DNA of 39,232 bases from Chloroflexi bacterium HGW-Chloroflexi-8. GTDB taxonomy: Bacteria > Chloroflexota > Anaerolineae > Anaerolineales > Anaerolineaceae. Numbering within the stretch: position 1 is the first letter of the stretch; each line of letters starts with the position of its first letter. This document shows positions 1,526 to 2,062 of this stretch, piece by piece. Where the stretch lies: NCBI GenBank assembly GCA_002841995.1, contig PHBS01000015.1, positions 1-39,232 on the forward strand. The letters are read 5' to 3'. Both the position numbers and the translations under genes were made by a program. The notes beneath the pieces are model-generated. The model made no database searches, was not told the DNA's origin, and saw only the letters and a list, made by a program, of their open reading frames with translations.

Positions 1526-1561
1526 CTTAAACACAGAAATTCAATAAGGAGATGAGTCACA

Positions 1562-2062
1562 ATGGAAAATAAAAAAGAAGGCTTCCGTGACATTCAGGTG
1601 ACTGCAAATGCCAGCTCTATTGAAAAATGGCGAAAACAAGTGATTGCCGGGCAACCGGAGACCGGGTCTGCATTTGCTCTGATCAGCGATGAAGGCAACT
1701 ACATGCCAGGTGGCGAGGGTACTGCTCCCACGCCTCTGACTTATTTTGTTTCCGGTATGGCTCTTTGACTGATTTCACATGTGTCGCAGGTAGCGACCAA
1801 AAAGAAACTTATGATCCGCAATGAACGTGTAAAAGTGACAGCACATTTTCATGAACAAGGGTCGGTTTTGCGTGGGGACGCGGAAGGGTTCTGTGATGGG
1901 TTTGATGTCGAAATCTCGTTTGATTCCGAAGAACCAGAAGAACAAATCACTACTTTATTACGACTAGCAAGGCAAATGTGTTTTACTGAAAAAGCCCTGG
2001 TTGGAAGCGTGCCAGTACAGGTGACACAACAGGTTAACGGAAAATTAATTTCAGGAAAATGA
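1562..2062 (+). CDS. OsmC-family peroxiredoxin-like selenoprotein (in-frame UGA = Sec69)
   Basis: Read through the TGA at 1766-1768, this is a single 166-codon OsmC-family protein. Residues 1-68 hold the N-terminal half, ending in TPLTYFVSGMAL; the TGA is codon 69; the same frame continues with LISHVSQVATKKKL and the C-terminal half to 2062. OsmC/Ohr proteins reduce peroxides with two cysteines, the first on the central helix right after the 'PxxxfxxGxa' region, the second near the end in an 'A...C' helix. Here codon 69 falls on the first cysteine, and Cys140 (in LARQMCFTEKAL) fits the second, giving a Sec69/Cys140 pair. AAGGAG precedes ATG 1562. The downstream half has no convincing start or ribosome binding site of its own. 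A SECIS-like hairpin begins 11 bases after the TGA. OsmC-like proteins are, as far as I know, among reported bacterial selenoprotein families. The genes for Sec insertion (selA, selB, selC, selD) are not in the window, so this stays a sequence-based prediction. Confidence 0.85.
1780..1799 (+). promoter_or_regulatory. Bacterial SECIS element (selenocysteine insertion hairpin)
   Basis: The arms GTCGC (1783-1787) and GCGAC (1793-1797) pair perfectly around the five-base loop AGGTA. Below them U1782 is bulged, and G1781-C1798 and U1780-A1799 extend the stem to seven pairs. The loop GG is preceded by 20 bases after the UGA; in E. coli fdhF the same count is 18. The fdhF SECIS also has the apical sequence GC-AGGU...GC and a bulged U in the stem, features recognised by SelB. 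The hairpin lies inside the coding region, as bacterial SECIS elements must. The match in loop sequence, bulge and distance together makes chance unlikely. Confidence 0.85.

Follow-up and report, generated by a model that had tools for sequence, protein, structure and literature searches.

Gene, reading frame and neighbourhood

The window (the whole stretch of 39,232 nucleotides analysed here, from contig PHBS01000015.1 of Chloroflexi bacterium HGW-Chloroflexi-8) belongs to a draft genome of 3.95 Mb in 256 contigs, which is 93.32% complete with 4.49% contamination. Close to the start of the window, an ordinary-code list of open reading frames (ORFs) places two separate ORFs, 1562–1768 (68 amino acids) and 1781–2062 (93 amino acids). 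When the TGA that ends the first of them is translated as selenocysteine (Sec), the two merge into a single frame of 166 residues, with Sec at position 69 and a terminal TGA at 2060–2062 (Table 1). A single frame interrupted only by the TGA at 1766–1768 had been proposed in an earlier note on this DNA, and the domain scores agree with it: the read-through product reaches 46.2 bits against the Pfam OsmC model (cut-off 27.5), whereas the second half scores 23.6 and the first half alone has no Pfam OsmC match. The joined product also passes the curated cut-off of the NCBIfam model NF041052 (OsmC_like_Se, 'OsmC-related (seleno)protein'), with 128.9 bits against 95. Purifying selection acts on both sides of the TGA, with median dN/dS values of 0.041 upstream and 0.079 downstream, taken from nine row pairs with usable dS; against the window's own gene, dS is at least 1.5 or saturated. 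The ribosome-binding-like site precedes the first half only, as had been noticed before; no such site lies upstream of GTG 1781, the start of the second half, which is positioned inside the hairpin described below. Judged by its sequence, the region 1562–2062 is very probably one gene, in which the TGA is best read as Sec and which would encode an OsmC-like selenoprotein. Because an ordinary-code ORF list splits the gene at the UGA, proteins like this one can easily be overlooked or mistaken for defective ones.

Table 1. Coordinates of the selenoprotein gene and of the features assigned to it
Feature	Position in window	Strand	Basis
Predicted OsmC-like selenoprotein gene, 166 codons plus stop	1562–2062	+	NF041052 and Pfam OsmC scores, translation
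AAGGAG, ribosome-binding-like, 10 bases 5' of the ATG	1546–1551	+	sequence
UGA read as selenocysteine, residue 69	1766–1768	+	TGA at the same codon in homologs
Predicted bacterial SECIS hairpin	1780–1799	+	fold, pair counts, synonymous-codon null
Possible lower SECIS stem, 1773–1776/1804–1807	1773–1807	+	the window's own fold; weak
Codon of Leu59, position of the catalytic Glu in Ohr	1736–1738	+	aligned to the Glu of V. cholerae Ohr (3eer)
Codon of Cys140, putative resolving cysteine	1979–1981	+	invariant column in alignments A3 and A4

The selenoprotein gene is flanked by two GNAT acetyltransferase genes (489–1022 and 2129–2668), and an ORF without a Pfam match (1044–1439) lies between it and the upstream GNAT gene. 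The neighbourhoods were compared by all-against-all BLASTP (E 1e-8) of ORFs of at least 70 amino acids from the first 6000 bases of the window and from 19 loci. None of the window's neighbour genes matched at the homolog loci in this comparison, and the only matching ORF was an antisense one that overlaps the selenoprotein gene. Groups of relatives have neighbours of their own, identified by a Pfam scan of a single example per neighbour. These are a malic enzyme upstream (five loci), GNAT and TerC proteins downstream (six loci each), and a lysine-2,3-aminomutase-like gene beside the cysteine (Cys) forms (four loci). The downstream GNAT gene of the relatives has no match to the window's two GNAT genes at E 1e-8.

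The hairpin downstream of the UGA and the decoding machinery

The segment following the UGA folds in RNAfold into a stem (1783–1787/1793–1797) closed by the loop AGGUA (1788–1792), with a bulged U at 1782 and further pairs between 1780–1781 and 1798–1799. The paired upper part begins 11 bases 3' of the TGA, and the energy of the fold, including the lower stem, is −8.7 kcal/mol. The loop, the bulge and the spacing had been recognized from the letters alone, and the computed fold reproduces them. The arrangement is that of a bacterial SECIS, a hairpin 3' of the UGA with a small apical loop that holds a G. The lower stem has 75% of its cells paired among 20 distinct close rows, and its assignment to the SECIS is doubtful.

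Conservation of the upper stem was scored as pairing of positions +15 to +19 with +25 to +29 after the TGA in 46 Sec rows, from which duplicates had been dropped. All five pairs can form in 41 of them, and the remaining five rows form 1, 1, 2, 4, and 4 pairs; the one of these five that was folded (L066) has a hairpin in a shifted register. The five Cys rows (four close ones and L069) form zero to two pairs. When the codons of the hairpin's peptide in the window were redrawn among synonyms 2000 times, all five pairs arose in 1.85% of the draws, and in 0–4.9% of 2000 draws for each of the eight rows tested. In the alignment of the 46 Sec rows (40 distinct), 93.5% of cells pair, and two-sided changes occur at all five pairs. 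The covariation score of 0.585 compares with 0.126 in shuffles, none of 500 being as high, and with 0.100–0.194 when the pairing is slid along the alignment; for the close rows (n = 21), it is 0.179 against 0.076, again with none of 500 shuffles as high, although the shuffled nulls do not preserve the kinship among rows. Taken alone, the count of pairs with two-sided changes was equalled by 29 of 500 shuffles for the 46 rows and by 158 of 500 for the close rows. The bulged U is invariant in the 21 close rows, but in them it coincides with the second position of a codon for Val, Leu, or Met and therefore does not count as independent evidence.

As evidence for the SECIS, the folding energy is weak when taken by itself. 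Energies as low as that of the native hairpin occurred in 2.6% of the synonymous recodings of the window, and in 25, 13, and 24% of those of L024, L027, and L037, three of the eight rows. The folding energy has a z-score of −1.21 over 47 nt and of −2.49 over 31 nt, and the hairpin ranks fifth by energy among the window's 15 two-ORF TGA junctions. By its conservation and covariation, the predicted SECIS is nevertheless beyond chance.

The earlier note had asked for selA, selB, selC, and selD, the genes that should accompany a bacterial selenoprotein gene, and all four are present in the genome. The tRNA-Sec has the anticodon TCA and scores 69.1 bits (cut-off 47), and selA (537.8 bits), selB (357.2 bits), and selD (348.8 bits) are each over their cut-offs. 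The selD gene (L017 1501–2433, G000:C46:24006–24938) contains one in-frame TGA of its own, within the N-terminal motif CAG-U-ASK, which brings the candidate selenoproteins of this genome to at least two. Another OsmC-domain stretch is located elsewhere in the same genome (L064 1501–1794, G000:C184); its closest model is OsmC/YcaO TIGR03549, for which it scores 60.6 bits, far under the cut-off of 900.

Fold, relation to known families and possible function

The AlphaFold2 model of the 166-residue protein has a mean pLDDT of 89.7. Residue 69 is located within the helix formed by residues 58–80, and residue 140 falls where helix 126–139 gives way to helix 141–147. The best fold matches in the PDB are OsmC-like proteins; 2opl is matched with a TM-score of 0.70–0.71 and an rmsd of 3.6–3.7, and the best match by E-value is 3cje, an OsmC-like protein from Jannaschia. 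The latter is also the nearest solved relative by sequence (E 2.7e-10 with a single sequence, 9.6e-23 with a profile) and has a Cys at the position aligned with Sec69, but the fold alignment has 22% identity with a poor rmsd of 13.0. Columns 69 (Sec or Cys) and 140 (Cys) are invariant in alignments A3 (32 aligned proteins out of 54 rows) and A4 (31 rows), which agrees with the previous placement of the TGA at the first redox cysteine of OsmC/Ohr proteins with the second one intact. Asp43, Glu44, Gly50, Pro56, and Pro58 are also invariant in A3.

OsmC-like selenoproteins are already known, in print since 2005 and as an NCBI model, and the window protein is a further member. They were described from the Sargasso Sea metagenome as three sequences with the motif UxxT (PMC1088965), appear again in the GOS data, in a table row with a first count of 5 (PMC2398784), and are listed in a 2026 review (PMC13188914). 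An OsmC domain, Sec at the first redox Cys, and a hairpin just 3' of the UGA are common to the window protein and the family NF041052. The window protein differs in the motif after Sec, which is U-L-I-S (UxxS) instead of UxxT; the latter describes the published members, and the NCBIfam cut-off is passed without it. The same phylum also includes members with ULLT or UMLT, and a few other UxxS rows (L051, L079, and L087). The window protein is 24–36% identical to eight aligned UxxT members of the phylum, against which its residues from about 18 to 35 (SSIEKWRKQVIAGQPETG) are mostly gapped or poorly aligned. One UxxS row, L051 1501–1863 (G031), is a distant OsmC-like gene, 27% identical to that of the window, in which a TGA is likewise present and is followed by a hairpin with all five pairs.

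The earlier note, which already pointed to metagenomic reports of the protein type, supposed that its occurrence in this lineage may be new. The first part stands, and for the second, the open-access literature searched yielded no paper that names such a protein from Chloroflexota. Three selenoprotein families were attributed to Chloroflexi in an early survey, the main text of which does not mention OsmC (PMC1794560). Whereas the family was first obtained from the Sargasso Sea, the host of the window protein is Anaerolineaceae-like according to the nearest named homologs, and one Sec-form homolog (L036) belongs to a strain record, that of Bellilinea caldifistulae. A family first seen in marine metagenome fragments is thereby placed in named genome records of an environmental lineage.

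The sequence and its comparisons support a single gene, the insertion of Sec, the SECIS, the assignment to the fold family, and the conservation of two redox positions; on this basis, the product would be an OsmC-fold oxidoreductase with two centres, a thiol and a selenol. The UGA at 1766–1768, which precedes the hairpin at 1780–1799, would be decoded as Sec by SelB and tRNA-Sec. By analogy with Ohr, which in X. fastidiosa has Cys61 and Cys125 (PMC5962072), the natural reading is that Sec69, in the central helix, would be the attacking residue and Cys140 the resolving one. A substrate, most likely a hydroperoxide, may oxidize Sec69 to a selenenic acid; Cys140 would then resolve the latter to a selenenylsulfide, and a cellular dithiol would complete the cycle. 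This chemistry of oxidation and recycling is inferred, and an organic hydroperoxide as the natural substrate is a guess with about equal chances of being right and wrong.

The claim that the protein is a peroxide-reducing enzyme is not secure and has about even odds, because the position of the catalytic Glu of Ohr is occupied by Leu59. The window protein shares the fold family and the two redox positions with Ohr; however, Ohr combines a peroxidatic Cys with a catalytic Glu, and the window protein Sec with a leucine. Ohr requires Glu51, located ten residues before the Cys, and the substitutions R19A or E51A leave only residual activity (PMC5962072). The alignment with Ohr 3eer covers the window protein from residue 49 on, and its N-terminal part, where a counterpart of the catalytic Arg in the N-terminal loop of Ohr would be sought, is unaligned. 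Sec69 and Cys140 may instead take part in thiol-disulfide chemistry of another kind, or in reactions with persulfides or electrophiles, a possibility that extends to the YhfA branch of OsmC/Ohr, and we give a selenoprotein of this kind, distinct from a hydroperoxide reductase, somewhat less than an even chance. Leu59 speaks for it, as do the scores against the two Ohr family models, which are far below the cut-offs (34.2 bits against 240 and 24.2 bits against 88.85). A 2022 review files the OsmC-like selenoprotein family under COG1765 (YhfA) (PMC9312934), and the YhfA subfamily is set apart from the thiol-peroxidases (PMC4069020). Furthermore, no window neighbour gene recurs beside the homologs, so that the compared loci gave no genomic connection to peroxide stress. 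On the other hand, the two redox positions known from Ohr/OsmC are invariant, a Sec in the place of the peroxidatic residue is well suited to reacting with peroxides, and the invariant Asp43-Glu44 of alignment A3 could supply a substitute acid.

Distribution of the UGA and probable conversion to cysteine

A scan of genome contigs in named records identified 19 close homologs that are 67–78% identical to the window protein. Fifteen of them have a TGA at the same codon, and the other four have TGT or TGC, which encode Cys. When the window's own genome and 60 relatives were scanned (n = 61), some match was found in 23 genomes and a close homolog in 11, the own genome included; every one of these close homologs contains a single TGA. 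In 400 genomes of the phylum, some match was found in 237, and 27 members were over the family cut-off. One TGA is carried by 26 of the 27, at the same column in those that were aligned, and the exception is the Cys form L069 of G345, the genome of which has selA. Among the matches listed below the cut-off in these 400 genomes, the TGA is mostly absent, and Sec thus marks the above-cut-off core and not the wider OsmC superfamily.

These homologs, together with the decoding machinery and the hairpin, bear on the remaining explanations of the UGA. It is very improbable that the UGA is decoded as an ordinary amino acid through a changed genetic code or leaky readthrough; the frame would be open whichever residue stood at the TGA, but the gene's own stop is a TGA, tRNA-Sec and selA, selB, and selD are present, the covarying hairpin lies 3' of this particular TGA, and the close homologs without it have Cys, the sulphur analogue of Sec. 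A changed code is therefore rejected. The recurrence of the TGA from genome to genome makes it very unlikely that a local sequencing error, which the earlier note had named as a possible refutation, is involved. An ordinary Cys-type OsmC gene altered by a nonsense mutation or by an assembly error, conceivable in a draft of 256 contigs, is refuted by the TGA-bearing homologs (15 of the 19 close ones, all from other records, the B. caldifistulae strain record among them, and 26 of the 27 over-cut-off members of the phylum) and by the selection on the part after the TGA, and its probability is practically nil. Two separate genes, of which the second could start at GTG 1781, or a truncated but functional protein that stops at the TGA, are disfavoured to the point of being negligible by the missing ribosome-binding-like site, by the Pfam cut-off that only the whole reaches, and by the four close Cys homologs, which are unbroken through the codon.

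In the tree, the four close Cys homologs form one clade with a support of 100/100 inside a 25-row set that also contains the window protein and in which the other 21 rows are Sec forms; the branching within this set is mostly unresolved, and the tree program warns that the bootstrap is not settled. None of the four genomes of the close Cys clade has a selA match, whereas all 15 Sec-form genomes in the same search have one, 14 of them over the cut-off. tRNA-Sec is found over the cut-off in 13 of the 15 Sec-form genomes and in none of the four close Cys-form genomes; weaker matches occur in all 19, and only over-cut-off matches were counted, with matches at E 0.001 present in 14 of 14 control genomes and over the cut-off in five of these. 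The two Sec-form genomes without an over-cut-off tRNA-Sec (G454 with L023 and G462 with L031) have selA over the cut-off, and the missing tRNA-Sec is likely due to assembly gaps. The clade suggests one Sec-to-Cys conversion, a single event and not four, along with the loss of the selenium pathway, with the direction deduced from the Sec-rich surroundings in the tree. Conversion of Sec to Cys is a known process (PMC1794560). With matched Sec and Cys versions of the protein at hand in close relatives, the reason for the use of selenium becomes experimentally testable.

A simple link between selA and the Sec form shrank on wider comparison. A selA match is present in all 46 Sec-form genomes (44 over the cut-off), but also in 84 of 101 phylum genomes (81 over the cut-off), and is therefore not very informative when taken alone. 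It is present as well in all four genomes that carry more distant Cys homologs (G345, G183, G245, and G105), so that among the Cys forms examined only the close clade lacks it.

A broader reading, which we consider speculative and on balance unlikely, is that the Anaerolineaceae UxxS proteins constitute a separate branch of OsmC-like selenoproteins that would lack the Glu of Ohr, act on a substrate other than organic hydroperoxides, and use Sec to provide the acidity that Ohr obtains from its Arg-Glu pair, with one clade having changed from Sec to Cys upon loss of the selenium pathway. If this were true, the Sec and Cys clades would be a ready-made pair for measuring the contribution of Sec.

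The 25-row clade of the window protein also includes a Sec form (L038) on a 3.9-kb contig of a Syntrophomonadaceae record labelled Bacillota. Its placement may reflect horizontal transfer or misbinning, and the genome of this record has two tRNA-Sec matches over the cut-off.
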